Positions 5,920 to 26,879 of a DNA stretch of 26,991 bases are shown here, in pieces (positions within the stretch are counted from its first letter, which is position 1; each line of letters opens with the position of its first letter). This DNA is from a virus: positions 1 to 26,991 of the IMG/VR virus record IMGVR_UViG_3300031857_001131, one strand, 5' to 3'. Both the position numbers and the translations under genes were made by a program. The notes under the pieces were generated by a model. It was not told the origin of the DNA, did no database searches, and was given only the letters and a program-made list of their open reading frames with translations.

Positions 5920-5936
5920 ACGAAAGGCTATGAGTG

Positions 5937-6374: not shown

Positions 6375-6384
6375 GAGTATTGTT

Positions 6385-7407: not shown

Positions 7408-7416
7408 GAGTAAATT

Positions 7417-8748: not shown

Positions 8749-8757
8749 TAGGTTTTA

Positions 8758-11700
8758 ATGGGCAAGTATTCTAACCTGTTTGCTAATGCTGGCGGTGCTG
8801 TCGGCAAGATTGCGCCTGAGGCCAGCGAGTTGGCTGGTGCCGTTCAGTCGGCACAGTATCGCATTGGCTCCAGTCCTGCTATCGCTAGTTCAGGAAAGTA
8901 TGCTGACCTATTTAGTCAGATTGAAAGTATTGCGGCGGGAAAGAAAAAGCCTAGTCGTGGTGTGTGGGGTGCTCTTGGTGGCGGACTGATGAAGGGTCTT
9001 GAGGGTGTCGGTTATGTGTTGGGCACTCCTGTCCGCGCAACGGCAAGTCTCGCCAAGGAAATTACTGATGTTACCCAGGGTCGCGGGTTTTCTCCGACTG
9101 ACCTTGTTAAGCAGGTTGCGGATAAAAACTTTTATCCGTCAACAATGATTCCCAAGAGTGGGAACAAGTGGCTTGATTCTGTTACCGGGTTTGCTGTTGA
9201 CGTGTTGGGTGACCCGACTACCTATGTTACGTTTGGTGCCAGTGCTTGGATGGGTAAGGCTGGCCGTTTGGCGTTGGCCGCCAAAGCGGCAGAGTCTGCT
9301 ACTTTGGCCAAGGCTCCTGGTTTGGCTAACAAGTTGGAAGAGATTGCTCGCCTTGGTGTCCACGCTGATTTGACGGATGTTGAGCGTGCGGTACTTAACG
9401 CACCGCGTGGTGTTTCGTGGACATACGGGGCACGCAAAGGTCAGGTTATTGGTCGTGAAGGTACGGTAACTCGCCGCCTGTCGGAAGAGTTGTCTACGAT
9501 TGTAGGCAAGCCAACCGCCAGGTTGCGTGCCACTATTGGTGATGTGCCGTTCTTGGAACCAGTTCAGAAGGCTGTGTTCAACAAGTCTATTCGTGATGCC
9601 GATTTGATTGGTTTGGGTCGGCGCGGCAAGCCGTATAACCCTAATGAGATTGTGGAGAAGTTGGCTGGCTATAGCGCCGCGCAACGCGGCAAGGCTATGG
9701 CGCGGTCGTTTATTTCGCGTATCGGTTCCACGAACCAGGAGTTGGCTAAGGAAATTTCGCAGTTCGAATCGTCTACTGGTTTGCGTGTCGCACACTTTAT
9801 TGAGGATGAGTCGCTGGTTCCTCCGCCTGAGGCGTTGGATATTGTAAACAAGACCAAGGCTTTTCTCGCTGATGTGCGTAAGCGCGGTAATGATGTTGCT
9901 GGCGAGTTCTCTGTTCGTCGTGGTGTGCGTACTTTTCTTATTGAGCAGGTTGATAACTATGTTCCGCACACCCTTAGTGAGGATGCGCGAGCATGGCTTG
10001 CGTCCAAGCGGTGGCGTGGGACGCCGAACGAAACTTATGTTAAGAATGTTTTGGACCTAAGTCCCGACGAATTCTCCAAGGGTCCTGCTGTTATGCGTGC
10101 CCGTAAACTGAAGCCTGCTGAGCCTGGTCAGCCACCGGTCATGTGGCTGGGTGAAGAAATCAGAACTGGTTCCATTAGGGAAATCAACGATATTACTGAA
10201 CGCAAGTTGGGTTTTAAATGGTTCGAAGAGGACGGCGCAACCTACTTGAATTCGTATATCAACTCTGTTGGTAATCAGGTTAAGCGTGTTGGTTTTGCTG
10301 ACCGCCTGTTTGATTATGGTGTTGATGTTGTCCGCGCAACAAACAAGGTTCTCCAGGCCGACCCCGAGGTTGCTAAGGCATGGGGCAAAGTTACTCGCCA
10401 GTGGGAAAGCATGCTGAAGGGTGTTGTTGCCCAGGACCAGAAGTTGGGTGCTCAAGTCGCAGGCGTTATGGGCAAGGCCACTAATGTGGCCCGTCAAGTT
10501 ATTCAGGACAACAATCGGAAACTAATTTTTTCTCAGCAGGAGATTGGTGTTCTTGAACAGCAGTTGTCACAAATCCAATACTTCTTGGATGTTGCCACCC
10601 AGCGTGCCGCCCAACGGGGCGGCGTTATTCAGCAGGAGTTTGAGGCTGTGGCCGCACCCCTTAGGGCGCGTGTAGCAGAAATCAATCAGGCTTTGTCTAC
10701 TAATGACCAGTTGGAATTGGCCGCTGTTATGTATCTTGAGGAGGCGCATGCGCGCATGTTTCCGCGCATGAAGAACCGTCCTACTGACCCACGGGTTATG
10801 GCTGAGCAAATCCTTGCGAAGTCCGAGTCAACAACCACTAGTCGCCTCAAGGCTTTGGAGACACGACGCAACCGATTGGCGCGGTCGGTCGGTCCGCGTG
10901 GACGAAAGACGAAGTTGGCTGAGTTTGCTGGCGAACAGGCAGATATTGCCAAGGCTGAGCGTGAGGCGTTGGATTCTGAGATTGAGTTGCTGAACGAGGT
11001 TGTTCAGAACGCTAGCGAAGATTTCCCGAATGGTGTTTATTATGTGAGCCGAGCCGATTTGGATATGGCCGCTAGTGGTGGCAAGGCTGGCATCCCCGTG
11101 TATAACGAGTTGCCTGCTGGTGCCAGCATTGATGATTTCATCATTAGTTTGGCACCTGATTTGGCTGGGTCTGGTTCTCAGATTATTCGTCCGTTGGATA
11201 ACTGGGGTCACTATGTGGATTTTGTTAGCGGTATCGGTGACGGTATTGGCTATACGATTGCGCGTTTGGGGGACCGTCAGGGCGCAGAGTTTTTCGATGA
11301 GATGTGGGGCATGGCCATGCGTTCTCAGCGTGGTGGCGTAAATGCTCTTGACCCGACTTGGGTTGATGCCGAACCGGAGTTGGCTGGCATTATTGCTATT
11401 GCTGACCGTATGGGTCGCAAGTATGCGGACGAAGCCACGTTCGAAGGAACTGATTCTGCGGCTCGTCTGGCCGAATTGAATCAAGATATCGAAGATATCG
11501 GCATGCTCATGGATGACTGGTTGGGTCGTCAAGTTGCTGTTAACGGTGCGCCAGATGATGTGTTTGACGACGGCTACGACATGTTGGCTGAAGCCATCTC
11601 GGAGATTGGCAACCCCACTAGCGGTGGGATGAGTGGGATTATCGGTGTCAACCTAGAGGATATTATTCTTGGTGGCACCGAAGCCGGAACTATTCTTAGC

Positions 11701-13836: not shown

Positions 13837-13838
13837 TG

Positions 13839-14333
13839 ATGGGATTGTTCGCTAAGAAGCGCAAGTATACGGGATTTGATTCTATTTCTCGTGGACGTAG
13901 AGCAGGTACGAATCGGTTGATTGAGTTCGTATTGTTTTTGAATGGCGGCAAGATTACTAATCTTGGTTCGTGGACAGTTCGGGACATGCGTGGCAAGCCT
14001 GGGAACACCAGTGTCCACGCGACTGGCAGAGCGGTTGACTTTGGTTACGCTAACCGTGAGGATGGGGTTGCGTTGGTTGATTTCTTTGTGCGTAACGCTG
14101 ATGCGTTGGGTGTTGAGATGGTGGCAGACTATTGGCCTAAGCCGTGGGGGCGCACCTGGCGGTGCGACCGTGGCGGCTGGAAGGTGTATACCTCTAAGAC
14201 TATTTCAGGTGCGCCGGGTGGCAAGTGGATTCATGTTGAACTTAGTCCTGCCGTTGCCGATAGTCCTGAATGGTTTGACGCAGTGTTTCAGCATCTGTTG
14301 AAGCCAGCAGAAGGCCATTCCCCTCAGGGATAG
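13839..14333 (+). CDS. Endolysin, M15-type peptidase domain
   Basis: This 164-aa protein has the zinc peptidase M15 (VanY / L-Ala-D-Glu or D-Ala-D-Ala peptidase) signature: SVHATGRAVD at residues 58-67 and WIHVE at 130-134. His60, Asp67 and His132 would bind zinc and Glu134 lies beside the third ligand. The rest of the domain fits (WTVRDMRGKPGNTS before, a Trp/Arg loop between). There is no signal peptide, so a holin would be needed for export. The ATG at 13839 is chosen because TAAGGA lies six bases before it; ATG at 13836 and TTG at 13833 are possible. It closes the rightward block and its last 92 bases overlap a gene on the other strand. Confidence 0.78.
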   Translation: MGLFAKKRKYTGFDSISRGRRAGTNRLIEFVLFLNGGKITNLGSWTVRDMRGKPGNTSVHATGRAVDFGYANREDGVALVDFFVRNADALGVEMVADYWPKPWGRTWRCDRGGWKVYTSKTISGAPGGKWIHVELSPAVADSPEWFDAVFQHLLKPAEGHSPQG

Positions 14334-15167: not shown

Positions 15168-15333
15168 TTTCTGTGGTCCTTTGTTCTAGTTGGTTGATGA
15201 CGTTGATTGCGTCATCTAGTGTACGCACTTTCGACATTGGCAAACCCAATGATACCACCATGGATTTGACATTGTTTAGTTGGCGCTTGGCTTCGCCAAG
15301 GTCGGTGGTTGTGCGATGTTTCCGGGGTGCCAT
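15160..15333 (-). CDS. Tiny 57-aa basic-helical protein
   Basis: This short gene starts at an ATG (15333-15331) that overlaps the preceding stop by one base (TGATG) and ends inside the next gene's start. The 57 residues begin MAPRKHRTTTDLGEAKRQLN, then a hydrophobic stretch (NVKSMVVSLGLPMSK) and a second helix (LDDAINVINQLEQR). GGAGG lies ten bases before the ATG. The exact stop/start overlaps on both sides are the strongest evidence that it is translated. The N-terminus is basic and could bind nucleic acid; the function is unknown. Confidence 0.55.
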   Translation of the reverse strand: MAPRKHRTTTDLGEAKRQLNNVKSMVVSLGLPMSKVRTLDDAINVINQLEQRTTENV

Positions 15334-16160
15334 CAAAACGGGTCCTCCATAACTAGGTCCAGTTGGAATGTTCCATCTTCCAACATTCGTGCGAGGACAG
15401 CGTAGCCGACCATGTCGGTCAATGTGTCCACGATTGTTTCCCCGGCGACACGGTTCTGCTTACCAAGCAGGTTCTTGTAGCGAGCAATCTTGTCACTGAG
15501 GCGTACTGCTACGCCGATAATACCGAACGCATTAATGTTGTCATGCCCATAGTCATGCTGTTTGGAACACAGGGTGTCTTGTAGCGTTTCGATATCCCAC
15601 ACACCCATGGTCACTAGGGCGCGGCCTGCTTCGCATCCTGCGCTCCAACAAATGTCTGCCAGTTTATCGGTGTCCAAACATTTGACGCATGCCCCCATGT
15701 TCCTGAAGTGTGCGTCGAAGATATCGGGTGTGAACTCGCCGCCATTAGCGCATCGGTCCATCGCCCTGAGGTGACGCCACGCGGCGTCTGCCCATGTTTC
15801 GTTACTCATATGTACCTTTCTTTCCATCATCCGAATGATTCTGTAATCTAGTTCCAGTATTTCTTTCAGTTTCTTTTGCGCCGATTTCACTGCGCCGTGC
15901 GCTGATGCTTTCGATGAGTACCCCATCATATCAGCAATCTCAGAGTACGAATGCCCCCAAATGTATACGGCGTCAATCACCCAACGGTCACGTTCACTGA
16001 GACAATCTTTGGCTGACTGGACGGCGGTGGCAACACCGTCGCTTAATGTTCCGGGTTCCAATTCGTTGATGCCGGACATCAATAGTTCTATTGGGTCAGT
16101 CCCGACTTTGTCGAGGATTTCACTGAGGATGAACGGGTCAGTCGGCGTGTGCTTGCTCAT
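15333..16160 (-). CDS. Fusion: sigma-region-4-like HTH + Nmad1 (DUF1599)-like domain
   Basis: This 275-aa protein appears to join two domains. Residues ~54-102 (LSERDRWVIDAVYIWGHSYS then EIADMMGYSS and VKSAQKKLKEIL) match the helix-turn-helix of sigma-70 region 4. Residues ~195-262 (KQHDYGHDNINAFGIIGVAV, RLSDKIARYKNLL, ETIVDTLTDMVGYAVL) match what I know as the nucleotide modification associated domain 1 (DUF1599) of phages. Between them, Met118 (15809) follows a ribosome site, GAAAGG, five bases before the ATG, so a short C-terminal product may also be made. Start choice: ATG 16160 (MSKHTP); ATG 16178 is an in-frame alternative with no better ribosome site. The gene overlaps its upstream neighbour by 23 bases. 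The DNA-binding part could control late genes; the second part may act in nucleotide or DNA modification. Confidence 0.66.
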   Translation of the reverse strand: MSKHTPTDPFILSEILDKVGTDPIELLMSGINELEPGTLSDGVATAVQSAKDCLSERDRWVIDAVYIWGHSYSEIADMMGYSSKASAHGAVKSAQKKLKEILELDYRIIRMMERKVHMSNETWADAAWRHLRAMDRCANGGEFTPDIFDAHFRNMGACVKCLDTDKLADICWSAGCEAGRALVTMGVWDIETLQDTLCSKQHDYGHDNINAFGIIGVAVRLSDKIARYKNLLGKQNRVAGETIVDTLTDMVGYAVLARMLEDGTFQLDLVMEDPF

Positions 16161-16593
16161 CCAAAGGTACACCATCATACTCGGGGTTAGTCAATAGGTC
16201 GGTCACATCCGTAGGTTCAAGCAGATATCCGCGCGAGGCGTTATCGCCACGCACACCAAACAGTTTCAACTCTAGACGGTTCTTGTTCAGTTCGATGTAT
16301 CGGCGTGCTCTGTCCACGTTCACAATAGTGAATGCGCCATCCAGATTGTATTGGTACACCCACCATTTTGCTTCGGTGACTGACAGCCCCGATGGTTTCC
16401 AGCCCCGACCTTTCGGGTTTTGTTCAATCTCTAGAACCATACGACCGTTCCTATAACGGTCGGACTTCACCTCTAGAGAACCCTGGCCGATATCTTTCAG
16501 GAACTGTTCCACTACTGCCTCGCCTCGCTTCCCATATTTCAGGTCGTCAGGGAAGTACGGTTTGGGTATATCGAACGCACTATTCTTGGCCAT
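16138..16593 (-). CDS. PD-(D/E)XK-like nuclease-fold protein
   Basis: This 151-aa protein looks like a small restriction-endonuclease-fold enzyme. The order is a helix with GKRGEAVVEQFL (Glu25), then Asp34, then LEVKSDRYRNGRMVLEIEQN with Glu41-Val-Lys43 forming an E-x-K core, then Glu55/Glu57. Further on come SGLSVTEAKWWVY and a beta hairpin. This D...ExK layout is that of PD-(D/E)XK nucleases such as Holliday-junction or repair-type enzymes. GAAGG is eight bases before the ATG, which overlaps the previous gene by 14 bases. It may process DNA in recombination or packaging; specificity cannot be told. Confidence in the fold is moderate. Confidence 0.58.
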   Translation of the reverse strand: MAKNSAFDIPKPYFPDDLKYGKRGEAVVEQFLKDIGQGSLEVKSDRYRNGRMVLEIEQNPKGRGWKPSGLSVTEAKWWVYQYNLDGAFTIVNVDRARRYIELNKNRLELKLFGVRGDNASRGYLLEPTDVTDLLTNPEYDGVPLDEQAHAD

Positions 16594-16780
16594 TACTTCG
16601 GCCTTCCGAAATAGCCAACGCTTGCCGATACAGGTTCTCGGGGTCGCCTTCCTTCAGGAAGTAGCATTCTGCTACATGTCTCCACAGTTCGCCCATGGCG
16701 GCTTCCTCCGCCAGGGCTTCAATGCCTGCGACAAGCAGTTGGAAACCTACCGCAATAGGGTTGTCTGTTGTTTCGTTCAC
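16580..16780 (-). CDS. Small 66-aa helical protein
   Basis: This protein begins at a GTG that overlaps the resolvase stop (GTGA) and ends inside the start of the next gene. It is mainly helical (AVGFQLLVAGIEALAEEAAM, then a Trp/His/Cys segment GELWRHVAECYFLKEG). No domain is recognised. The 4-base overlap with RusA and the 14-base overlap downstream suggest translational coupling in the recombination cluster. A role is not assigned. Confidence 0.6.
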   Translation of the reverse strand: MNETTDNPIAVGFQLLVAGIEALAEEAAMGELWRHVAECYFLKEGDPENLYRQALAISEGRSNGQE

Positions 16781-17130
16781 TGCTTGTAAACCTCCAGGTA
16801 TACGATTTGGTTGTCGTCATCGTAGGCGATGCCGTTCAATCCATCCATCACTAGTTTAACATAGTTATCTATGTCTCCCCTCAAAGGGGACTGTTCCGCA
16901 TTAGCGATACCGACGGTTACTTCCGTGCCTGCGCGTGAGAACTTGGCTCGCATAAATACGGGGCCTTCAAACTTGGGGCCATCCCATCCTTCACCAATAG
17001 TGTTTTCCGCTAGGTGGGTTTTGATGGGCGTGTATGCTTTGCCGCGCCGCGTCATACGCGGGCGCTGTTTCACTTGTGGCCTAGTGGTATAGACGACGGT
17101 GTGTTCAGTTTTCTTCTTGCGTGTAGCCAC
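16777..17130 (-). CDS. rusA: RusA-type Holliday junction resolvase
   Basis: This 117-aa protein matches the RusA family, which cuts four-way DNA junctions as a dimer. The N-terminal segment has KQRPRMTRRGKAYTP, and the catalytic region is RGDIDNYVKLVMDGLNGIAY (Gly85, Asp86, Asp88, Asn89, Lys92, Asp96) followed by DDDNQIV (Asp104-106), which would bind magnesium. The length is typical (RusA ~120 aa). The start is GTG at 17130, with an AG-rich stretch upstream; it lies inside the end of the preceding gene. In phages RusA resolves recombination or replication intermediates before packaging. It lies two genes downstream of the primase. Confidence 0.9.
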   Translation of the reverse strand: MATRKKKTEHTVVYTTRPQVKQRPRMTRRGKAYTPIKTHLAENTIGEGWDGPKFEGPVFMRAKFSRAGTEVTVGIANAEQSPLRGDIDNYVKLVMDGLNGIAYDDDNQIVYLEVYKQ

Positions 17131-17284
17131 GGCTATACTCTCTGCTTTGGAATACCACTAGGGTTTCTTTGTCGTTGGGACATGGGTCGCCTGCTGGCCA
17201 CTGCGTGTCCATAGGCATCTGTTCGGATACGAACGTGCCGTATGGCTGTTCGGTGATAGTAACTAGACGTACATAGTTACCCAT
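17105..17284 (-). CDS. Small 59-aa protein between primase and RusA
   Basis: The ATG at 17284 overlaps the primase stop by eight bases (ATGGGTAA); an ATG 18 bases upstream, at 17302, would extend into the primase gene. The product begins MGNYVRLVTITEQPYG and has a polar Pro/Asp-rich centre (MDTQWPAGDPCPNDKETLVV). Its 3' end overlaps the RusA start by 26 bases. No family is recognised. The overlaps support translation; the function is unknown. Confidence 0.52.
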   Translation of the reverse strand: MGNYVRLVTITEQPYGTFVSEQMPMDTQWPAGDPCPNDKETLVVFQSREYSRGYTQEEN

Positions 17285-18173
17285 TGTAGGCACGCTCCAC
17301 AATCTTGTTGATTTCCTCTAGGCCACGTTCGCCACGCAAATGATATTTGCCCCATCGTTTGTCGGCGTCGATGACAATAGCACGACACATGCTGGGTGTG
17401 ATGCCTGACCTGAAGCACACATGTGCTAGGCGCATCAGTGCGGTGGAACGGTCCTGTCCCTCTAGGGGTCCTTGCTTCCAGATGACACGGGCCAACGGTG
17501 ATGCTGACCTGAGGGCATCCTCTAGGTCCTCGTCGTCCAACCTGTCGAAGTCAATAGCAGGGCGTGTGGGTTTCGGCGCCACATAGTGTGACGCCAGAAA
17601 CTTGATGCGTTCCGGGTCGGTCATCGTCATTGTTGCGTCAGCAAGAAAGACGTTTAACGGCATCGGGTTGTCGTCCCCATCCAGGATGACACGACGTTCT
17701 GGCGTGGACAGTAAGCCACCCATGTATGGCAGACGTACATAGTTGCCGACTTTGGTTACGGATACGTCGAACTGTTTAGGGTTGACTTCTCGTGCCGGAT
17801 AGTCGGCTACTTGGTGTGCGGCCAATAGCATGTTGCGCATCGCTTCTGCGGGCACTGGGGCACCTGAGAATACCCACACATGGTAACCTTTGGAACGTGA
17901 ACGTTCCACCCAGGAGATAACACCAGCGGCCATTAGTGTGCGCTGTAGCAGACGGGCCGCACCTAAATCTTCTACGTCTATGTCGGAGCATCCCCATACA
18001 CAGAATGCTGGGTTGCCTGGTACTGCCGGGTAGACACCGATGCCACGGTCACCCATCAGATGGGATGAGAACACTTCTCGTGTCAACGGTTGACGTACAC
18101 ATCCGCCTTCGTCGGCGCCGAAACAGTCACCTCGTCCACGAAACAGTTGGATGAATTGGTCGGTTGGGGTCAT
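17277..18173 (-). CDS. Archaeo-eukaryotic-type (AEP) DNA primase
   Basis: This 298-aa protein carries the AEP primase motifs: CSDIDVEDL (Asp64-x-Asp66) for metal binding, ERSRSKGYHVWVF with Ser94-Lys95-Gly96 ... His98 for nucleotide binding, and NYVRLPYM near residues 144-151. The C-terminal 90 residues form a helical domain with acidic and basic patches (DRSTALMRLAHVCFRSGITP) found in phage primases of this class. AAGG seven bases before the ATG overlaps the helicase stop. With the adjacent DnaB-like helicase it forms the likely replisome core, making short primers for the unwound strand. No DNA polymerase is visible in the window. Confidence 0.82.
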   Translation of the reverse strand: MTPTDQFIQLFRGRGDCFGADEGGCVRQPLTREVFSSHLMGDRGIGVYPAVPGNPAFCVWGCSDIDVEDLGAARLLQRTLMAAGVISWVERSRSKGYHVWVFSGAPVPAEAMRNMLLAAHQVADYPAREVNPKQFDVSVTKVGNYVRLPYMGGLLSTPERRVILDGDDNPMPLNVFLADATMTMTDPERIKFLASHYVAPKPTRPAIDFDRLDDEDLEDALRSASPLARVIWKQGPLEGQDRSTALMRLAHVCFRSGITPSMCRAIVIDADKRWGKYHLRGERGLEEINKIVERAYNG

Positions 18174-18184
18174 GGGTCGGCACC

Positions 18185-19276
18185 TTAGTCGAACACCAGG
18201 TCACGAACAACCGGGTCAAATGTCAACTGCTCCGCAGTTGAACCAGGTTCGTTGCGTGATGCGACACTCATATCGTATGGCACACCCAACAAAGGCAACA
18301 GTCGCCCAGTCCCAGGTTCAATCTCATAATCCATGTCATCCAATAGTGTCGATGCTGGACGCTTACACTTGACCAGGTTCAGCGTAACAGTATTCTCATG
18401 AATACGTTCCTCATAACGGAGGAAGTCAAGCCTTTCCAGATGGCGTTCAGTCGCTGTACCCTTGGCAAGTTTCTCATTGATTTCCTGAATCTGTGATTGG
18501 ATTTCAAACTTCTTACGACGCACACCAATAATGTGCGACGCCTGTTGCTCGCCACCATACGCACCTGAACTAATGGTTTGCTTGCGTCCGTCCGCTCCGC
18601 TGTTACGGGACGACTGGTGTAGTACCGCCAAGGGTACATGATGCCGTTTACCGAATGCTTTAATGGTGTTGGCTTTTGACGGTACGTCCTCGCCTCCACC
18701 TTGTAGCAATTCCAAATAGTCGAACACCATCAACGACGGCTTACCCATCACATCAGACACTTCACCAATAGCACGTTCCATATCACTGAGAGTCATCGGC
18801 TGGTCAAACACTGCCAACTTGGGGAACTGTTCCGTAGCAGTAGTTCTCAATAGGTCAATGGCGCGTTGGTCTTTGTCTGCGACTGCTTGCTCTAGTTCGT
18901 TGGCGTGAACACCGTTCGCTACGCATGCCAACTTAACCAGTGTCAGTGTGCGTGGTTCATCTGGACAGAAATAAACTACAGGCTTATCTCTATTGTTTGC
19001 GAGGACAGATAGTAAGAACATGGTCTTACCGCTATGGCTGTAGCCGTTGATGAGTAGCATCTCTGATGGTGCTACGCCTCGCATCTGCGCATCCAGTTGG
19101 TCGAACCCCAAGTAGACTCGTTCTTCTGGTGTCTGCGCCCAGTGTACGAATTCGGTGACCGCTTCGGTCAAAGGTTTATAGTAGGAATGTTGGGGGGCCA
19201 AGTCAGACGGGGCGACCGAAATCGGTTCGCCCCGTCCAAGTGACGCCCAACGCTGTTCTAGCGTTGTGCTATCCAT
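18185..19276 (-). CDS. DnaB-like replicative helicase (RecA-fold ATPase)
   Basis: This 363-aa protein is a single-domain DnaB/RecA-family ATPase. The Walker A loop is GYSHSGKT at residues 78-85, Walker B is SLMVFDYLELL with Asp186, and a later motif VLHQSSRNSG (Gln221) matches motif H3. After it come GAYGGEQQASHIIGVRRKKF and a coiled-coil insertion near residues 255-290, then a beta strand with LNLVKCKRP. It lacks the ~100-aa N-terminal domain of bacterial DnaB, as many phage helicases do. It should form hexamers and unwind DNA ahead of the fork, working with the primase made by the next gene. The ATG overlaps nothing and lies three bases after the previous gene. Confidence 0.82.
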   Translation of the reverse strand: MDSTTLEQRWASLGRGEPISVAPSDLAPQHSYYKPLTEAVTEFVHWAQTPEERVYLGFDQLDAQMRGVAPSEMLLINGYSHSGKTMFLLSVLANNRDKPVVYFCPDEPRTLTLVKLACVANGVHANELEQAVADKDQRAIDLLRTTATEQFPKLAVFDQPMTLSDMERAIGEVSDVMGKPSLMVFDYLELLQGGGEDVPSKANTIKAFGKRHHVPLAVLHQSSRNSGADGRKQTISSGAYGGEQQASHIIGVRRKKFEIQSQIQEINEKLAKGTATERHLERLDFLRYEERIHENTVTLNLVKCKRPASTLLDDMDYEIEPGTGRLLPLLGVPYDMSVASRNEPGSTAEQLTFDPVVRDLVFD

Positions 19277-19279
19277 CCG

Positions 19280-19759
19280 TTACTTCTTCGGAGGCCAGAA
19301 AGCAACGGGCTGACCCTTGGCATTCATCGTACCGTCAGCGGCCTTGAACATGGGCCGACGGTTCTCCGCATTAGCGGTGTCACGATTGTCGTACACCTTG
19401 GTGACGCCAGCACGGCGTGCCTGTTCGGACAACCAGGACGGAATAGGTCCGTGCTGTGTGCCGACGACACGAATGCCAGACGACTGGGTTTCCACCGGGG
19501 TGGCGTTGAACATGTCAATCAACTCGGCTTCGGTAGCCATAGCATTAACGCTAGTGGTTGCCGTAGCGTTGGTGATGGTCACCTGCGGGGTGGTCTGAAT
19601 GTTATGTGCGCCGAACACGACTTCACGAACGAAGTCGAAATGGCTAAGGTATACGGCCTGGATTTGTTCCTGGGAACCGTCAGTCTGGGTGACACCAGTC
19701 AATTCGCTGGCAATCTTGGCCACCACCTGAGTGATGATGGATTCATCCTTGCTAATCAC
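19280..19759 (-). CDS. Possible ssDNA-binding or recombination accessory protein
   Basis: The GTG start at 19759 is chosen because AGGAGG lies four bases before it; longer starts further upstream are much weaker. The product is 159 aa. The N-terminal half is helical then Thr-rich (ITNATATTSVNAMATEAE). The C-terminal half has a compact conserved-looking motif: PSWLSEQARRAGVTKVYDNR, then RRPMFKAADG and the ending VAFWPPKK. I know this WL..QAR.AGV..VYDNRD ... RP.FK ... FWPP end from phage proteins next to replication genes but cannot name its function. The position between nuclease and helicase and a possible promoter 5' of it suggest it acts in DNA replication. The SSB idea is a guess. Confidence 0.68.
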   Translation of the reverse strand: MISKDESIITQVVAKIASELTGVTQTDGSQEQIQAVYLSHFDFVREVVFGAHNIQTTPQVTITNATATTSVNAMATEAELIDMFNATPVETQSSGIRVVGTQHGPIPSWLSEQARRAGVTKVYDNRDTANAENRRPMFKAADGTMNAKGQPVAFWPPKK

Positions 19760-19795
19760 ATACCCTCCTAAGGTTGTGTTGTTGTTGGACACTGT

Positions 19796-19822
19796 ATCAT
19801 ACCGTACCTTCGGTGTTGTCAA
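19796..19822 (-). promoter_or_regulatory. Candidate promoter (TTGACA / TATGAT) for the 19759 gene
   Basis: On the minus strand TTGACA (19822-19817) and TATGAT (19801-19796) are separated by 15 bases, shorter than the usual 17. The -35 lies inside the 3' end of the nuclease gene. Transcription would begin about 30 bases before the GTG at 19759, leaving a short leader with a strong AGGAGG. Confidence 0.42.
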
Positions 19823-20663
19823 CCGACTGGTTCGGCAACACCAAATCACTATCGCGCCAATGAGCGCCCTTACACACCGACCAATAATCACACCACTTGG
19901 AAGAACACAAGTTGTGTTGGTCATTCATCGGCCAATCAGGTTGACCCCACGCAGTAACAGCAGTATTCACCACGCTAAGAACCTGACGTTGAAACCATGC
20001 CACCTGGTCGGCACCTCTAGAGACGGTCACAATCTGCGCCTTAGGTGTAGGTTGACGAACCATAACACCAAACCTAAAGAGATTCACACCATCACTAGGG
20101 ACCAAACCTAGGATACGGGAAGCAGTAATATAGCAGGTCGCCTGATGCGACTGCGACTGCTTCTCCCTAGCGTAATAGGTTCGGCTGGAAGTTTTCCAAT
20201 CCCAAATAACACCATCGGGTGCCACATAATCCATGGTCCCTTCAAGCCATACACCATAACCATTACAAGCGTGGACATTCAAAGGGGCCTGGAACTTATG
20301 TTCAACCAAACCACCAAGAACAACCTGAGGTCTAATGGTATCCCACCATCCACTAGTCATGCTGTCCACGCAAGCCCTAAGGTTTTCGGGGTCATCAGCA
20401 ATACCAGTCAACTTGATATCCTTATCAAGTTCAGAAGCAACAACCAACTGAGTGTATTCCTGGAAAGAATCCAGGTCAGTAATTTCACCAGTCAAATACT
20501 TCTCAATGCCAGCATGGACACCAGTACCAATAGCAGTAGCATCACTGCCGCGTCGCATCGTTGGCATAGCCAACGCATACCTGGCACGCTGTGGACATAT
20601 CAGCGCGTCACCAATCCATGATTGGCGCACATAGATATGTTTCTCATTCGGGTCGAATCTCAT
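19797..20663 (-). CDS. PD-(D/E)XK exonuclease, Cas4/RecB-type with Fe-S cysteines
   Basis: This 288-aa protein has the layout of RecB/Cas4 family nucleases. Cys23 (LICPQRARYAL) is followed by a helix with His50 (GTGVHAGIEKYL), then EGTMDYVAPDGVIWDWKTS with Asp145, Asp155 and Lys157 as the active site, Gln174 and Tyr178 in QATCY, and a C-terminal cluster CSSKWCDYWSVCKG (Cys253, Cys258, Cys264). The four cysteines would hold a 4Fe-4S cluster, as in AddB and Cas4. Such enzymes resect DNA ends for recombination or replication restart. GGAGG lies five bases before the ATG. It sits between the two-HTH regulator and the replication genes. Confidence 0.8.
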   Translation of the reverse strand: MRFDPNEKHIYVRQSWIGDALICPQRARYALAMPTMRRGSDATAIGTGVHAGIEKYLTGEITDLDSFQEYTQLVVASELDKDIKLTGIADDPENLRACVDSMTSGWWDTIRPQVVLGGLVEHKFQAPLNVHACNGYGVWLEGTMDYVAPDGVIWDWKTSSRTYYAREKQSQSHQATCYITASRILGLVPSDGVNLFRFGVMVRQPTPKAQIVTVSRGADQVAWFQRQVLSVVNTAVTAWGQPDWPMNDQHNLCSSKWCDYWSVCKGAHWRDSDLVLPNQSVDNTEGTV

Positions 20664-20683
20664 CTGTACCTCCGCTGGGTTAA

Positions 20684-20714
20684 TGATACCACCCCCTAAT
20701 GGGGGGTGGTATCA
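20684..20714. promoter_or_regulatory. Perfect 13-bp hairpin between regulator and nuclease
   Basis: TGATACCACCCCC and its exact reverse complement flank a five-base loop. It overlaps the stop codon of the upstream gene and ends some 20 bases before the nuclease start. No T-run follows on the minus strand, so it is more likely an attenuator, RNase site or mRNA stabiliser than a strong terminator. Confidence 0.6.
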
Positions 20715-21445
20715 TGGTCTTTCATCCGTGACCTTAGTTTATGTACCGAACCTTTAGTGATGGTGATATTGAACTCGGCTTGGATAACATCCACTATAGC
20801 AGACGACGGGACACCACACAACACCAGTTCACGCATCCGCTTCTGATATGGATGCCCACCCGAACCACGCATCACACGTTCCGTCGGACGATTAGGCCAA
20901 TACCTACGGAACCTAGTGATGCTGTCGTGACTGAGGCCGAACTGTGCTGACATCTGACCAAGCGTTCGCTTGGGGTCCATGATAGCCTGCTCAAACTGAA
21001 CCAAAGTATCCATGTCCATATGCCATGACCCGGTACTGGCGGCTAGCGTGAACTGCTCCGCAGTGAACCGCAACGATTCCAGTACGCTACGAATCCCACT
21101 AGAGTACGACTCCGCCAATGCTTGACGAACCTGAACTCTGATGAGTCGCCACGGATTAATCACATTAGTACCCTTGGCTGGGGTACAAGGTTCCACCTTG
21201 GGTAGTTTCTGTTGAGCGATATACATGTCATGTAGATACACGATATCCACCAGATAGGCCAACACTTCTTGCTCTGTCCACCCGTTGGCACCATGTCCAC
21301 GATACTCGCACAACTCTGGCCCCATCCACATGTCCCGAACAGGGTTGTTCATAATCGGCACAGGGTTGTGGATAACCACATCACACAAACAATCAGGGTC
21401 ATGGTCCGATACGCCACACCCAATCACTGCTTCCACGGATTCCAT
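20696..21445 (-). CDS. DNA-binding protein with two helix-turn-helix segments
   Basis: This 249-aa protein has a Cys-containing N-terminus (Cys10, Cys19, Cys21) and a helical middle. Two HTH-like segments lie in the C-terminal half: TLGQMSAQFGLSHDSITRFR at 161-180 and a second at ~204-240 (LVLCGVPSSAIVDVIQAEFN then GSVHKLRSRMK). Both have the typical helix, tight turn, recognition-helix rhythm. GGAGGT lies six bases before the ATG. It sits ahead of the nuclease, primase and helicase genes, so control of early transcription or an origin-binding role is possible. It has no recognisable effector domain. Which DNA it binds is unknown. Confidence 0.62.
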   Translation of the reverse strand: MESVEAVIGCGVSDHDPDCLCDVVIHNPVPIMNNPVRDMWMGPELCEYRGHGANGWTEQEVLAYLVDIVYLHDMYIAQQKLPKVEPCTPAKGTNVINPWRLIRVQVRQALAESYSSGIRSVLESLRFTAEQFTLAASTGSWHMDMDTLVQFEQAIMDPKRTLGQMSAQFGLSHDSITRFRRYWPNRPTERVMRGSGGHPYQKRMRELVLCGVPSSAIVDVIQAEFNITITKGSVHKLRSRMKDHDTTPH

Positions 21446-22005
21446 CCGTCACCTCCGTTACGTTGGACACTATAGGAATACATCAGCCATGCGGCCAACA
21501 GATTAGTCGCAGGGTCATACAACTTGGAACAATCATCCAACACACCCTGGTCCTGTAACCATCCATTAGGATGGTACTTGGATGACGTACACCAGTAGCC
21601 GTTCACTTGTAGCAAACCATACGACCCACCATGCGGGTCGCCAGCATTATAGGCTGACGGTTGGCATCGTGATTCACGCCACATGATATTGACCAGACGT
21701 TCAATAACCTCCCGGTCCCTAGGCCAGCCAGCCTGGAGGGCCAGGGGAACCCACTCTTGGCATGGGCTAAAGGGGTCCACCAACGCTACCGGGATGGTCG
21801 TGGTTGTCGGCTGGTCAGGATACTGGCCAGAATCTTGCCGGATTGCCTCGTTAATAGCCGCCTGAGACACGCTAGTGGGGGTGATAGTATCAACCACTGG
21901 TGCCAGCGGAACCAGGCTAGGTTCGGGCTGATATTCAGGGGCACACCTCAGGCTGGCAAACAGCACCGCCATTAGCACCCCTAGTCCTAGACCGAATTGT
22001 TTCAT
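21424..22005 (-). CDS. Secreted lytic transglycosylase / lysozyme-like protein
   Basis: The 193-aa product has a signal-type N-terminus (KQFGLGLGVLMAVLFASLRC), a Pro/Thr-rich linker to residue ~80, and a lysozyme-fold domain after it. The catalytic motif is IMWRESRCQPSAYN (Glu111) with GGSYGLLQVNGYW at 126-138, typical of SLT-type or goose-type transglycosylases. The Cys21 position suggests possible lipid attachment, but the residues before it are not a standard lipobox. AAGGAGG lies seven bases before the ATG. It cleaves peptidoglycan glycan strands in the family. It lies in the early block, away from the endolysin, which is unusual. Confidence 0.76.
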   Translation of the reverse strand: MKQFGLGLGVLMAVLFASLRCAPEYQPEPSLVPLAPVVDTITPTSVSQAAINEAIRQDSGQYPDQPTTTTIPVALVDPFSPCQEWVPLALQAGWPRDREVIERLVNIMWRESRCQPSAYNAGDPHGGSYGLLQVNGYWCTSSKYHPNGWLQDQGVLDDCSKLYDPATNLLAAWLMYSYSVQRNGGDGWNPWKQ

Positions 22006-22181
22006 GACTTATCCTCCTTGTTGGGAACCATCATCACCGAATCACGTTGATGAGACTTGTGGCGACACTCCACAGGGAACGTGGAGATATGGGTACGCAC
22101 CTTGGTATCACACCGTGGACATGTCCACAGTGCTGGTGGACACATCGTGTTCCACCGCAACACAGAACTAACACTAGACAT
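22002..22181 (-). CDS. 59-aa zinc-ribbon-like protein
   Basis: The ATG at 22181 follows AGGAGG by four bases, so the 17 residues that a longer frame would add at the N-terminus are left out. The product contains WTCPRCDTKVRTHISTFPVE then CRHKSH, giving Cys-x2-Cys ... Cys-x-His-x3-His ligands that could bind zinc. Its stop overlaps the start of the transglycosylase gene by four bases (ATGA). Small zinc ribbons often bind nucleic acid or serve as adapters; the function here is unknown. Confidence 0.6.
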   Translation of the reverse strand: MSSVSSVLRWNTMCPPALWTCPRCDTKVRTHISTFPVECRHKSHQRDSVMMVPNKEDKS

Positions 22182-22189
22182 CGTTCCTC

Positions 22190-22417
22190 CTACGGGTTCG
22201 GGAAAGCAATCAGCATGCTTTCGTATACGCACACACGACGGTCAATTAACAGTTCGGCATCTTGCCAGTTGTTAATGAACCGTCGCACCACATGACGAAC
22301 GAAAGGTTCGTCGGTTTCAATGATGACCATACGATGGTCAGAATCTCGTGGCGCTCGGGACACATCCACAAGAATACCTACGGTCGCATTACAATACGCA
22401 TCATCATACACAGCCAT
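22190..22417 (-). CDS. Small 75-aa protein of unknown function
   Basis: This protein starts MAVYDDAYCNATVGILVDVS and has a strand-helix rhythm (HRMVIIETDEPFVRHVVRRF, then DAELLIDRRVCVYESML). No motif is recognised. AGGAGG lies ten bases before the ATG. It is packed two bases from the next gene upstream and eight bases from the one downstream. It could be a small regulator, but nothing in the sequence shows this. Confidence 0.6.
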   Translation of the reverse strand: MAVYDDAYCNATVGILVDVSRAPRDSDHRMVIIETDEPFVRHVVRRFINNWQDAELLIDRRVCVYESMLIAFPNP

Positions 22418-22419
22418 AA

Positions 22420-22629
22420 CTAGAACACCTCCTCATCAATAGCATCCAATAGATGGTTCTCATCCAACATCTGAATGAACTTCAGTTCAATGTCAACAGG
22501 TTCAGACTCATCGTTGAACCACACATCATAGTCATCGTCATACCAGTAGCCCATCGTCACGATAGCCCACTCCTCTACGGTGGCGTGACCATGCTTCCTC
22601 AGGTATGTGTTAACAACGTCCTCTAGCAT
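22420..22629 (-). CDS. Acidic 69-aa protein
   Basis: The ATG at 22629 overlaps the stop of the upstream gene (TGATG) and has AGGAGG six bases before it; a GTG three bases upstream would be too close to that site. The product is acidic (YWYDDDYDVWFNDESEPVDI) with helices at both ends. Very acidic small proteins can mimic DNA in phages (for example anti-restriction proteins), but this one has no diagnostic feature and the idea is only a suggestion. Confidence 0.62.
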   Translation of the reverse strand: MLEDVVNTYLRKHGHATVEEWAIVTMGYWYDDDYDVWFNDESEPVDIELKFIQMLDENHLLDAIDEEVF

Positions 22630-23318
22630 CACTCACCTCCTTCGGAGCGTAGGAACTCGTCAATCATCTCATCGGTGACACCGTTTTCCAATAGCGCCAT
22701 ACCTTGGGCGTCATACTTGGGCAACTTCCCAGCGCTACGACCCTTGTGATACAGCACACATGCCAACATCACGTTGTTCACCAACTCAATCTGGCGAGGG
22801 TCCAAGTCTGACATGTCTCGTTCCATCAGACCGAACACATAGTCCATCTCATCCTGACTATAGACTCCATCTTCGATGGCCAACTCCACAGCCGTAGCCA
22901 TTGTGATGGACAACGCATCGGCGTTGCGCACCACCCATTCCAACGTGCCGTCGAACACCTTGTCCGAATACCAGGTGGGCACATCGTAATTGTCCCCGTC
23001 ATACGCACCGTTGGTGGGGTTGGTGCCACTAATGATGACAACGTCACCAACAAGGTCGCGTTGGAACATGATGCTGGCTCGGTCATTGGTTGGCAAACCA
23101 ATAAGCAAACCCTCATCGTGGACGTAGCCACACAACATGAACGTTTCACCATCATGGCCGGGGTCGAACTCACGAGGGTCAACCTTGGTTGACACCGCAT
23201 CGATATGTCCGCCAACATGGCGTTGAATGTCCGTGTAATCCTGGACCGCCAACCAATAAGGCTTACGGTTCATGTCGCTGGGAATCACGATTCCCATAGG
23301 TGCTTTGTGCTTGTTCAT
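22629..23318 (-). CDS. DUF3846-like protein
   Basis: This 229-aa protein has an N-terminal domain (residues ~20-115: DIQRHVGGHIDAVS, YVHDEGLLIGLPTNDRASI, LVGDVVIISG) that resembles DUF3846, a small phage/plasmid domain of unknown function with a G-H-I-D-A start, an N-x-R-A segment and a GDVVI strand. The rest is helical and acidic (DEMDYVFGLMERDMSDLD). GGAGGT precedes the ATG. A promoter candidate lies 50-80 bases upstream, so this may be the first gene of a transcript that includes the small proteins and the transglycosylase. The function is not known. Confidence 0.62.
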   Translation of the reverse strand: MNKHKAPMGIVIPSDMNRKPYWLAVQDYTDIQRHVGGHIDAVSTKVDPREFDPGHDGETFMLCGYVHDEGLLIGLPTNDRASIMFQRDLVGDVVIISGTNPTNGAYDGDNYDVPTWYSDKVFDGTLEWVVRNADALSITMATAVELAIEDGVYSQDEMDYVFGLMERDMSDLDPRQIELVNNVMLACVLYHKGRSAGKLPKYDAQGMALLENGVTDEMIDEFLRSEGGE

Positions 23319-23453: not shown

Positions 23454-24293
23454 TCATGCGGATGCGAATTCCAACAAACCCAACTTGTCAAGTTGGAACC
23501 GCACCCATTCTAACGGCTTGTCTACCGGGTCGGGAACCGTAGACGGTTCATTCTCCGCACGTTGAATAACAATGTGAGGCTGGACGTAGTCCAACGTCTC
23601 AGCGATGTGAGGCTGGGTGTGACCAGCCGCACCGTGACCCGTCGTCTTGTCGTAACGGGCTTCGAACATGATGCGACGCAACATGGACGGATGCCCCAAC
23701 GCAAACGCAATAGAGTCCACATTCAACGGGGTGCCAGCCCGATGGACACACACCACAGTGTCGTGATGCTTACCATTAATGGTAACGGGGCTAGCAATCC
23801 ACACTTCGACAGACTTGCCAACCATGCCCAACACATGGACCAGCGCCGCAACCGCACCAGCACGCTTGGTCATCCAATCGGCTGAATACTTCGCTGAGGC
23901 CCCATTGTCCACCAGAATCCTGGTCACCTGACCACTAGTGGTGTCAGGCGTCGGCATGTATTGGACCATACATTCAGGTTCACCCTCCATGTACCGGCCC
24001 ATGTCAGGGTACGCACCAGCGGTGTCGTACACCATCTCCTGGACCATGTCGTGTGCCACCGTCTGAAGTTCACTCTCCAGTGAACCAACGACAGCGTCCA
24101 CCGTCCGACGACCAGCGTCCCAACCATTAGCAAGCATGCTAATGGCGGACGCCAAGTCGGACGAACCGTGCCACTCGTAGTCCCAACTCCCGTCATACGC
24201 AGGCTGGTGGGTGCCACCGTAGGTGGCGATAACGTCGGCCATGTCAGTGAACACGACCTGCTTGCCAGTACCACGGATGCTATTGACAATCAT
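23454..24293 (-). CDS. Partner of the CobS-like ATPase (DUF7192-like)
   Basis: This 279-aa protein starts 17 bases after the AAA+ gene's stop and is probably its partner. It begins MIVNSIRGTGKQVVFTDM, has a helical part (residues ~45-100), and a later domain with GKSVEVWIASPVTIN, TVVCVHRAGTPLNV and HPSMLRRIMFEARY. This looks like the protein class (I recall DUF7192) that accompanies CobS/MoxR-like ATPases in phages, often compared with CobT. The MIDAS motif of true VWA domains (DxSxS) is not seen. Start: ATG 24293 is preferred, with GTG 24302 as alternative. In the family, the ATPase drives conformational change in a partner or substrate. No substrate can be named here. Confidence 0.6.
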   Translation of the reverse strand: MIVNSIRGTGKQVVFTDMADVIATYGGTHQPAYDGSWDYEWHGSSDLASAISMLANGWDAGRRTVDAVVGSLESELQTVAHDMVQEMVYDTAGAYPDMGRYMEGEPECMVQYMPTPDTTSGQVTRILVDNGASAKYSADWMTKRAGAVAALVHVLGMVGKSVEVWIASPVTINGKHHDTVVCVHRAGTPLNVDSIAFALGHPSMLRRIMFEARYDKTTGHGAAGHTQPHIAETLDYVQPHIVIQRAENEPSTVPDPVDKPLEWVRFQLDKLGLLEFASA

Positions 24294-24309
24294 GATTGTC
24301 ACCTACCTT

Positions 24310-25662
24310 TCAACTTGCCAAGGCCGGAACGTTGTTCCGAACCTGGTCCCATGTCTTGGAATCCATACCCTTACGGATACGCACATCGGCCACATACTGG
24401 AAACCGAAACCCTGCTTAAGCAGTTTCGCCCCACCAATAGCGGCTCGTGGTGTCACAGCGATGCGAGCCGAAGTCGCACCGCCCATCGACAGCACATTAC
24501 GACGACACGCCCGGACAATCTCCAGCCACTGGCTGGCAGTACGATGGTCACCATCCAACGCTGACACAGTCAGGTCGTACTCCATATCCTCGTCGTACTG
24601 GAATTCCAGTACGCTGAGACGGTCCTTGGTGCTGAAGTCACTAGCGGACCGACCATTGTACGCACTGGTCGCCCCATCCAATGGCGTGTTACCAGAGAAC
24701 ACCAGCACCGTATCGGGATGAACACCATACGTCCCAGCCGGGGTACTAACCATACGGTTAGCGGAGATGGTGTTGATTGCCACGGCAATAGCCGGGGGAC
24801 AAGCGTCGAACTCATCGAACAGCACGACACCACCCTCACGCAGTGCGGACACCAGCGGTGTCTCACGCACCTCGCCAGTGGCGTCACGGAACCCGACCAG
24901 TTTCGCCTCAGTCGTCTGAGATGAGAACGTGACCAGTTCGAACCTACGGTTCAACACCTTGGTGGCAATAGTGGCCACCGTCGTTGTCTTGCCAGCACCA
25001 GCGCCACCCCACAGGTACAACTCATCACCTGCGGCGATGTGCTTCAGCACATCGTGGAACTGCTTGTGAACACGCTCCGTGATAGCCACCGTAGGTGAAC
25101 CATTCACCGTGATGTTGTTCACCACAGGCCGAGACACAAGGTCATTGACCTTGGCCGTAACCAGGTCACCAATCTTGTCCACGCTAATGGGGTCGAACGA
25201 TGCTAAAGCATCGCTCACCACCCTAGTGGCGGTCTGCTCAGCGACCGCCATGATGACAGCATCCAACGAAGTTGCCGACGTTGGAATCGCCGGGGCAACT
25301 GGCGCCACCACACTGGCAGGTGTGGGGTCGGCGTGGACAGCCGGGGTCGTGGCACTAGGTGCCACGTTGCCGTGGCGTCGGGTGACTAGAACGAAGTTCG
25401 TGTTCGGTTCACAATGTGAAACCGAACCAGCATACTTGGCGACATTAATAATGTCGTTCAGCATCTCGTGATTCTTGCGTTCAGCCGCACCGCTCAGGCC
25501 CAGATGGGCACAGCACCGACGAATGTCGGTCCGACCAAGCCCACCAAGAGCAAACACCTTGGCGTTATCCTTGTCACCGTCAGGTGACCGTAGCACCGTC
25601 ACCGATTCAACGGTTGGGTACCATCTCACTTCGTGAATCCATCCTGCTTTGCTAGCACCCAT
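24310..25662 (-). CDS. CobS/MoxR-like AAA+ ATPase
   Basis: This 450-aa protein has an N-terminal extension (residues 1-100, a small helical domain with GLGRTDIRRCCAHLGLSG) and an Ala/Thr/Pro linker (to ~135), then a AAA+ domain. Walker A is GGAGAGKTTT at 219-228, Walker B is VVLFDEFDACPP with Asp283-Glu284, and a later NTP segment (VFSGNTPLDG) gives Asn325 as sensor. Arg348 in KDRLSV may be the arginine finger. The layout is that of MoxR/CobS ATPases, which form rings and remodel a partner. The next gene downstream is a probable CobT-like partner. AAGGAGG is eight bases before the ATG at 25662; longer frames run into the tRNA-like element and were rejected. Similar pairs are common in phages without a known target. 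Confidence 0.82.
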   Translation of the reverse strand: MGASKAGWIHEVRWYPTVESVTVLRSPDGDKDNAKVFALGGLGRTDIRRCCAHLGLSGAAERKNHEMLNDIINVAKYAGSVSHCEPNTNFVLVTRRHGNVAPSATTPAVHADPTPASVVAPVAPAIPTSATSLDAVIMAVAEQTATRVVSDALASFDPISVDKIGDLVTAKVNDLVSRPVVNNITVNGSPTVAITERVHKQFHDVLKHIAAGDELYLWGGAGAGKTTTVATIATKVLNRRFELVTFSSQTTEAKLVGFRDATGEVRETPLVSALREGGVVLFDEFDACPPAIAVAINTISANRMVSTPAGTYGVHPDTVLVFSGNTPLDGATSAYNGRSASDFSTKDRLSVLEFQYDEDMEYDLTVSALDGDHRTASQWLEIVRACRRNVLSMGGATSARIAVTPRAAIGGAKLLKQGFGFQYVADVRIRKGMDSKTWDQVRNNVPALAS

Positions 25663-25707
25663 TAGGGTGACCTCCTTGTGTGTTGGGATAACCGACGTAG
25701 TCGGTCG

Positions 25708-25774
25708 TGGACTGCCAGGAATCGAACCTGGCGACCCGAATCGTAGACCCGGGTCGGACACCATGTCAAGCCCT
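25708..25774 (-). tRNA. tRNA-like element, degenerate
   Basis: On the minus strand there is a perfect T-arm (CCAGG TTCGATT CCTGG) followed by CAGTCCA. Upstream lies a 9-bp extended hairpin (CGACCCGGG-TCTACGA-TTCGGGTCG, two G-T pairs) in the anticodon-arm place and a short D-like hairpin (GACA-TGG-TGTC). The 5' acceptor side pairs only partly (GGGCT with AGTCC). It overlaps promoter hexamers. It could be a tRNA remnant, an attachment-site-like fragment or a structured leader. I cannot read a normal anticodon; the loop has C, not U, at the position before the triplet. Confidence 0.3.
25740..25769 (-). promoter_or_regulatory. Candidate promoter (TTGACA / TACGAT) for the AAA+ gene
   Basis: TTGACA (25769-25764) and TACGAT (25745-25740) have an 18-base spacer on the minus strand, the same spacing as at 23363-23392. 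It would start a transcript with a ~70-base leader holding the T-arm hairpin, a 6-bp hairpin (25691-25705) and AAGGAGG before the AAA+ ATG. It sits within the tRNA-like element, so one of the two readings may be wrong. Confidence 0.42.
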
Positions 25775-25779
25775 AATTG

Positions 25780-25796
25780 TGACCCCTAGGGGGTCA
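25780..25796 (-). terminator. Hairpin at the end of the 26156 gene
   Basis: TGACCCC pairs with GGGGTCA over a three-base loop; it includes the stop codon of the 25794-26156 gene. No T-run follows on the minus strand, so strength as a terminator is doubtful. Confidence 0.35.
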
Positions 25797-26156
25797 GTGG
25801 GGGAACCGACGCACACCGTCAGTGTGCTCGTACCGGGCGACGCCACCGTTCCTACGGAACTGCCAGCCGGTCCCGAACAGAATCTTGTTCATGCCCTGCT
25901 GGTCCGATGACGAACCATGCCCCGTGGACAGGGGAGCGAACTGGAACACTTCGTGTTCATTAGCACCCTGACCAGTGGTGTAATTCGCCACCAGTTTGTA
26001 GAACTCACCCATAAGGGTGCCGTAATGCCACACCTGACGGAACTGGATTCCATCGGAATCCACCTCGTCCTTGAGCGTCCACATCCCCATGCGGATGTGC
26101 CTGCCTACCGGCCTAAAGGCCAGCCCTGTGTTGGGATTCATGTCTGCCAGTTTCAC
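25794..26156 (-). CDS. Unknown 120-aa protein
   Basis: GTG at 26156 follows AAGGAGG by four bases; the longer frame upstream would run into the tRNA-like element. The product has 120 residues: a Met/Arg-rich start (RHIRMGMWTLKDEVDSDG), an aromatic strand region (FRQVWHYGTLMGEFYKLVAN), a Gly/Ser-rich loop (APLSTGHGSSSDQQG) and a strand-rich end (ILFGTGWQFRRNGGVARY). I do not recognise a family. It is the first protein-coding gene of the leftward block in the window. Its DNA is crowded with perfect three-base-loop hairpins. Function unknown. Confidence 0.6.
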   Translation of the reverse strand: MKLADMNPNTGLAFRPVGRHIRMGMWTLKDEVDSDGIQFRQVWHYGTLMGEFYKLVANYTTGQGANEHEVFQFAPLSTGHGSSSDQQGMNKILFGTGWQFRRNGGVARYEHTDGVRRFPH

Positions 26157-26195
26157 TGGTCCTCCTTGTGTATAATTATTCACTGTTGTGAATAG

Positions 26196-26270
26196 TGGCA
26201 AGAACGGGAATCGAACCCGTCGCACCGTCCACCGAAGGTGGCTGGGTGCCGTACTACCTATACGCTTGCC
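26196..26270 (-). tRNA. Putative tRNA, unusual anticodon arm (tRNA-Glu TTC?)
   Basis: A 75-base element on the minus strand starts GGCAAGC and ends TCTTGCCA, so the acceptor pairs in 6 of 7 positions. The T-arm is perfect (ACGGG TTCGATT CCCGT). A D-like hairpin (GTAT-AGGTA-GTAC) follows the acceptor. The middle forms one long hairpin (GCACC ... CCACC-TTC-GGTGG ... GGTGC) instead of a normal 5-bp anticodon stem. Read with a 7-base loop, the triplet would be TTC (Glu), but the base before it is C instead of the near-universal U. It may be a real but divergent tRNA, or a tRNA-like RNA. Confidence 0.45.
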
Positions 26271-26295
26271 TGACGGCTTAAGCCGTTCGTGGACA

Positions 26296-26313
26296 CACTA
26301 GGCTCACTAGGCT
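26296..26313. repeat. Tandem 9-base repeat, CACTAGGCT twice
   Basis: CACTAGGCT occurs at 26296-26304 and again at 26305-26313 without a gap, in the untranslated stretch upstream of the putative tRNA. It could be an iteron-like site or just chance slippage; only two copies are present. Confidence 0.6.
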
Positions 26314-26879
26314 AATCTTCCACTTCGTCGTAGACGACACTTCCCTTGGCGGTCCCACCAGGCAACCGTAGGTTGGCAATAGTCGGGTACTCCGACCACC
26401 TACGGTGATAACCAGGCTGGGTCATACCCCCTAGGGCGTCTGTCCATGCTCCGTGGCTTCTCAGACTTGCTACGAACTTCGTTCGGGTTCCCCCCGTCAA
26501 CCGACTTCGTCGGTATCACTGCGAGGTCCAGCGAACTACGTTCGTGGCGCTACTGACATGGCTATCGAACCTCACGCCGATTTAGACGTTCTTGGCCGTG
26601 ACCATGAGGGTATCGGCGTTGTCGCTCCAGACGGCTCACGCTCTCTCACCGATACTCCCGGACGGCTTCACCCTGCTGGGCCGCTCTCGTCCTGCCACCG
26701 AATCGGGTCGCACTTCCCGGTCGGTCTGCCCCACACCCTAGAACACCGTCGGACCGAAATCAAACATCCCCGACTCCGCACCTTTCCGCGCTGTTCTCCG
26801 CCCCGGAAACACGCCGTCGGCCTGCGCACACCCATACACACGGCGCACACACACGCTCGCACCGCGCATGTTCGCCTGC

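Follow-up and report, generated by a model that had tools for sequence, protein, structure and literature searches.

Short inverted repeats in genes are usually put down to mutation or to mRNA structure. Katz and Burge, cited in PMC4060949, described genome-scale ordered RNA structure with selection on the structure of coding mRNA. The mitochondrial genes of Nematomorpha carry coding palindromes of unknown cause, with repeats of up to 284 bp (PMC6649704). The early promoters of phage N4 are hairpins with 5-7 bp stems and a three-base loop that are extruded by supercoiling; physiological levels of supercoiling are enough for small hairpins of this kind to emerge from duplex DNA, and they influence transcription (PMC4496689).

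We analysed a 26,991-nucleotide stretch of viral DNA (the window; IMG/VR record IMGVR_UViG_3300031857_001131) together with its relatives. The hairpin pattern found in this family of water-borne phages acts at the level of DNA, treats both strands largely alike, depends on stability, is specific to the lineage, varies in strength along the genome and comes with constraint on synonymous sites.

The reported stem cluster and the window-wide excess

The original prediction described a cluster of eight perfect hairpins with three-base loops between 25691 and 26544. All eight are present with matching positions and arm lengths, and the five stems of at least 6 bp, the reused arm pairs and the further examples to the left (23404, 24213 and 25348) were likewise correctly described. 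The region contains 12 maximal loop-3 stems with arms of at least 5 bp, four of which had been overlooked:

25691-25705: 6-bp stem, loop GTA; c(GTA)g on the + strand
25780-25796: 7-bp stem, loop TAG
25848-25860: 5-bp stem; c(GTA)g on the - strand; within the gene at 25794-26156
25944-25958: 6-bp stem; c(GAA)g on the - strand; within the gene
26044-26062: 8-bp stem, loop ATC; within the gene
26147-26159: 5-bp stem; t(GAA)a on the - strand; at the gene start; overlooked
26229-26241: 5-bp stem; c(GAA)g on the + strand; within a tRNA-like element; overlooked
26325-26337: 5-bp stem; c(GTA)g on the + strand; overlooked
26363-26375: 5-bp stem; c(GTA)g on the + strand; overlooked
26473-26485: 5-bp stem; c(GAA)g on the - strand
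26500-26514: 6-bp stem; c(GAA)g on the - strand
26532-26544: 5-bp stem; c(GTA)g on the - strand

Nine of the 12 have C(GAA)G or C(GTA)G as loop and closing pair on either strand. Their spacing is indistinguishable from random and shows no regularity. Shuffles of the region average 0.85 loop-3 stems with a maximum of 5 (n=200), which agrees with the earlier estimate of about one by chance. Every other loop size from 0 to 12 is represented by 0-3 stems, and the loop-3 density of the region exceeds the window's own average with a binomial P of 1e-6.

The region is therefore really enriched, as had been claimed, but the excess is not merely local: across the window, stems with arms of at least 6 bp number 32 for loop 3 and 29 for loop 4, against 4.8 and 5.0 in dinucleotide shuffles. 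Similarly, the preference for three-base loops over loops of two, four or five bases holds within the region but not window-wide, where loops of three and four bases are favoured alike and the excess fades to background at loops of about 9-11 bases or more. Expected counts were taken from local dinucleotide shuffles and from synonymous shuffles. The excess of perfect short inverted repeats goes beyond codon and dinucleotide expectation: it persists in shuffles that keep proteins, codon usage and dinucleotides (loop 3, 24 vs 5.2; loop 4, 26 vs 4.5). The enrichment of loop-3 stems climbs with stem length and flattens near 7-8 bp.

Transcription terminators were rejected as a general explanation: most stems are intragenic (50 of the 61 window stems with arms of at least 6 bp sit within genes), and one terminator-like stem was seen. 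This stem, at 2240-2261, has 9 bp and a TTCG loop, lies directly 3' of the capsid gene and is likely a terminator. A 14-bp perfect hairpin with a five-base loop, far longer than the others, lies at 20683-20715 between two leftward genes. An assembly artefact is unlikely, with the window sequence recurring in other metagenome contigs at 99.8-100% identity and the hairpin pattern recurring in about 100 contigs and in MW202803.

Searches of the window returned no RNA family at the Rfam gathering threshold, no tRNA gene by ARAGORN and no tandem repeats. Two tRNA-like elements on the - strand (25706-25773 and 26197-26270), missed by ARAGORN and below Rfam thresholds, have good T-arms (TTCGATT) and altered anticodon arms, and each immediately precedes a gene. 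RNase P/Z punctuation and degenerate tRNAs are possible identities. One contig (L002) is 100% identical to the end of the window over 2578 bp and extends about 2.9 kb beyond its right edge (L002 1-2942); it is the only relative that overlaps the reported region, and is identical there.

Gene map, enrichment gradient and relatives

The genes of the window and the enrichment of loop 3-4 stems in them are as follows:

57-14333, + strand: structural half (scaffold, capsid and virion proteins); 1.6-5x where homologues are many
15333-23318, - strand: remaining leftward block; mostly 3.5-8x
23454-24302, - strand: DUF7192 gene; homologues 85 vs 7.9, or 10.8x
24310-25662, - strand: AAA_5 (MoxR/CobS-like) ATPase gene, the enrichment peak; homologues 206 vs 12.6, or 16.3x; window gene 8 vs 0.5
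25794-26156, - strand: small gene of the leftward block; homologues 19 vs 1.5, or 12.7x

The start codon of the small gene was picked by reading the sequence. Summed over homologues, the gradient runs from 1.6x in the capsid gene through 3-5x in most other structural genes and 3.5-6x in replication genes to its peak, which is where the reported cluster falls; the small gene is the next one upstream of the AAA_5 ATPase gene. The peak genes are the promoter-proximal ones of the leftward block, which the AAA+ ATPase gene opens. From its position and gene content, this block is probably expressed early. Its remaining part encodes a DUF3846 protein, a lytic transglycosylase-like protein, a PD-(D/E)XK nuclease, a DnaB-like helicase, an AEP primase and RusA; the primase and helicase are present with no recognised DNA polymerase in the window. 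The product of 15333-16178 (- strand) fuses a sigma-70 region-4-like part with a DUF1599 nucleotide-modification-associated domain.

At least 593 capsid-protein relatives were found among viral contigs, and in about 100 related podovirus contigs perfect stems of 6-8 bp with loops of three or four bases are strongly over-represented, mostly within genes and even against synonymous-codon shuffles. For loops of 3-4 bases and arms of at least 6 bp, capsid-neighbourhood loci show a pooled excess of 3.46x (67 loci, 839 kb) and helicase-neighbourhood loci one of 5.2x (41 loci, 638 kb), the pooled relatives being uncultured and not independent of one another. The best single related contig reaches 11.5x, and strength varies among relatives from about 2x to 11x. 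MW202803, an annotated podovirus with 42% capsid identity, shows 3-4x overall and 7.7x around its own ATPase gene.

As a comparison, random viral contigs give 1.24x (n=97, picked by one arbitrary 14-mer). T7, P22 and Mx8 lie at about 1x, lambda and LeBron at 1.5-1.6 and N4 at 2.0; in prophage relatives from bacterial genomes, whose capsids are 33-39% identical, the excess is absent. One random viral contig not known to be related (L094) has a 3-4.7x excess of such stems. A relative with 55% capsid identity (L250) lies on a contig binned as a Euryarchaeota MAG, has a 2.4x excess and is probably a misbinned phage. Candidates for a gene that tracks hairpin richness were rejected: the only ones are confounded by the part of the genome that each contig covers, and the best-looking one is without a known domain. 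We consider it very probable that the hairpins are a DNA-level property of the whole lineage.

Mutation or selection

In the most enriched genes, hairpin arms of close pairs diverge at synonymous third positions by 0.064 (0.046-0.082) against 0.139 elsewhere, a ratio of 0.46 to the normal rate. In the same genes control arms diverge by 0.138 and loops by 0.122, and the arms are conserved relative to both loops and flanks. Relatives thus conserve the synonymous sites of such arms in the gene block to which the reported cluster belongs. Replication genes show less of this constraint and late genes none, in parallel with the enrichment gradient, and double changes that preserve pairing are far above control. 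At larger distances the arms diverge like the flanks, and therefore individual hairpins turn over; relatives often differ by the gain or loss of a hairpin. Part of the sharing of positions among relatives is due to amino-acid motifs common to them that leave room for hairpins, such as DFV. The constraint of 0.46 falls short of what a simple selection model needs for a 16x enrichment (about 0.2, calculated).

Sequence-directed mutagenesis, in which template switching or hairpin repair during replication or transcription perfects imperfect DNA hairpins with no need for a function, is the main rival, a possible but rather unlikely source of the pattern. It is a known process, invoked to explain why coding sequence has more short inverted repeats than expected (Ladoukakis and Eyre-Walker, in PMC4060949). 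It would be DNA-level, strand-symmetric, dependent on stability and demanding of perfect pairing, as is seen here; a connection with high transcription is possible (PMC3820800) and would agree with the gradient, and the frequent gains and losses also speak for it. However, the footprints expected of template switching (one arm rewritten, clusters of changes copying the neighbouring complement, inverted loops) did not appear: changes within hairpins are not concentrated in one arm relative to controls, as multi-base arm conversion would have them, clusters of three or more substitutions are not copies of the nearby reverse complement, and loop inversions stand at expectation (13 vs 12.3). Extension of loop-3 stems is, moreover, nearly neutral beyond 7 bp, and the slower evolution of arms than of other synonymous sites in the most enriched genes also counts against this process.

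That slower divergence of arms than of loops and other synonymous sites would be expected if paired bases in transiently single-stranded DNA were less damaged, so that hairpins accumulate without selection. We regard such protection as an improbable cause: a roughly two-fold lower loss rate is by itself insufficient for 16-30x enrichment, and the compensating double changes lie far above control.

Together, the results favour constraint, though paired bases that mutate less often could give the same picture as selection, and we put the chances that selection rather than mutation maintains the hairpins at about even.

Pairing rules and comparison with known systems

Selection on mRNA would place stems containing G.U pairs between perfect and mismatched ones. 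Within the coding sequence of relatives from the capsid neighbourhood, enrichment is 4.5x for perfect 7-bp stems, 1.56x for those with one G.U, 1.80x for those with one A.C and 1.5-1.7x for those with other mismatches; the corresponding values in the most enriched genes are 23x, 2.6x, 1.5x and 1.5-1.7x. G.U slightly exceeds A.C in the latter (2.62+-0.31 vs 1.46+-0.25), and a small RNA contribution is therefore possible, although both are an order of magnitude under perfect pairing.

C(GNA)G mini-hairpins and C(GNNA)G tetraloops are extraordinarily stable in DNA and are the source of the loop and closing-pair rules considered here. Among triloops, c(GNA)g is enriched 3.6x and g(GNA)c only 1.2x. 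Among tetraloops, c(GNNA)g is enriched 2.9x, and c(GNYA)g (3.1x) does not fall behind c(GNRA)g (2.6x). On the mRNA strand GNA (102 vs 47) and its complement TNC (85 vs 39) are favoured alike, and the enrichment of loops correlates with that of their own reverse complements (rho 0.61); this symmetry of the strands is incomplete for loop 4 in coding sequence. DNA folding energy fits equally well on the two strands (logL -21254 and -21251) and much better than RNA energy (-21394 and -21417), which adds only 4.5 units when combined with it.

Selection on mRNA structure, whether for RNA processing, stability or genome-scale ordered RNA structure, would suit the intragenic position of most hairpins and the slight surplus of G.U over A.C in the most enriched genes. 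It is nevertheless highly improbable as the cause: G.U stems are barely enriched, GNRA and UNCG tetraloops get no special preference in genes, GNA and TNC triloops are equally favoured on the sense strand, and RNA energy explains less than DNA energy. Of the two options in the original prediction, DNA signals (cruciform, origin, recombination or packaging) and RNA processing sites, there is good support for a DNA-level cause, whereas RNA processing is unlikely: on either strand the loops follow the rules of DNA mini-hairpins, stems hardly accept G.U pairs, and DNA energy outperforms RNA energy. An origin, a packaging site or another single-site signal is also unlikely, because the hairpins occur genome-wide, their arm sequences are unrelated and they share no flanking motif.

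Hairpin promoters of the N4 type, recognised by a phage RNA polymerase, are the least probable explanation: N4 early promoters have the same stem range and loop size (PMC4496689), and most local loops are c(GAA)g or c(GTA)g (9 of 12), but many other loops occur, the hairpins number in the hundreds, are intragenic and lie on both strands, and 139 c(GNA)g hairpins in the relatives are without a common flanking sequence. The same scan picks up two 7-bp stems with TCC loops in N4 (557 and 4546), taken to be early promoters. A large virion protein has no similarity to RNA polymerase by sequence or profile, and sequence and profile searches of the partial genome returned no virion RNA polymerase. 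With no shared flanking motif and no RNA polymerase found, we do not class the hairpins as N4-type promoters, even though their stem and loop sizes agree with those of N4 hairpins (5-7 bp stem, three-base c(GRA)g loop). The early region of N4 itself (L260, 1-8000) has a 4.0x excess of loop 3-4 stems (15 vs 3.75), which exceeds the share of its three early promoters.

The explanation that we propose, with confidence evenly divided, is that this podovirus family favours short perfect DNA stems (6-8 bp, loops of 3-4 bases, preferably C(GNA)G) under selection for a putative function. Hairpins would be favoured genome-wide wherever the protein sequence permits, and above all in the genes with which the leftward block begins. 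We infer that the constraint may reflect a selective advantage of DNA in which hairpins extrude or fold while it is negatively supercoiled or single-stranded, which could occur during early transcription, entry or replication. Hairpins might help by modulating supercoiling and transcription, by offering the phage AEP primase and DnaB-like helicase sites for priming or loading, or by protecting the entering DNA. More tentatively, this double-stranded DNA phage family may use synonymous codons to fill its first-expressed genes with extrudable hairpins, densely (up to one per about 80 bp) and independently of sequence, as a structural signal carried by the DNA: a topological or transcription switch, priming or helicase entry points, or armour for the DNA as it enters.

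These results suggest that the physical folding of DNA, besides the protein code, shapes these genomes. The system combines a large excess, pairing rules that separate DNA from RNA, and a strength that varies among relatives; the old question of whether short inverted repeats are made by mutation or kept by selection is therefore directly testable in it. If they are selected, phage genes carry an additional layer of information in the secondary structure of their DNA, and codon-based analyses of such phages would be misled if the hairpin constraint were ignored.

The N4 promoter hairpins are likewise small DNA hairpins with three-base loops, but N4 has three early promoters with conserved bases (PMC4496689), whereas here there are hundreds of hairpins with free arm sequences and no polymerase was found. 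The coding palindromes of Nematomorpha are also perfect inverted repeats inside coding sequence that are gained and lost between relatives (PMC6649704); theirs reach 284 bp, while those described here are viral and nearly all of 6-9 bp with 3-4-base loops. Stable DNA mini-hairpins obey the C(GNA)G and C(GNNA)G rules that the favoured loops and closing pairs follow here, but they are biophysical motifs rather than a genome-scale pattern. The repeats ascribed to sequence-directed mutagenesis are similarly short, perfect, intragenic, with small spacers and beyond codon-preserving expectation; the excess here is far larger (to 16x per gene), is graded along the genome, obeys DNA triloop rules, and comes with constrained synonymous sites and no template-switch footprint. 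Genome-scale ordered RNA structure shares with our system a structure encoded by synonymous codons genome-wide, but the present hairpins pair by the rules of DNA, and for triloops the two strands behave alike. If the more tentative reading is true, the hairpins of this podovirus family would be its DNA counterpart.
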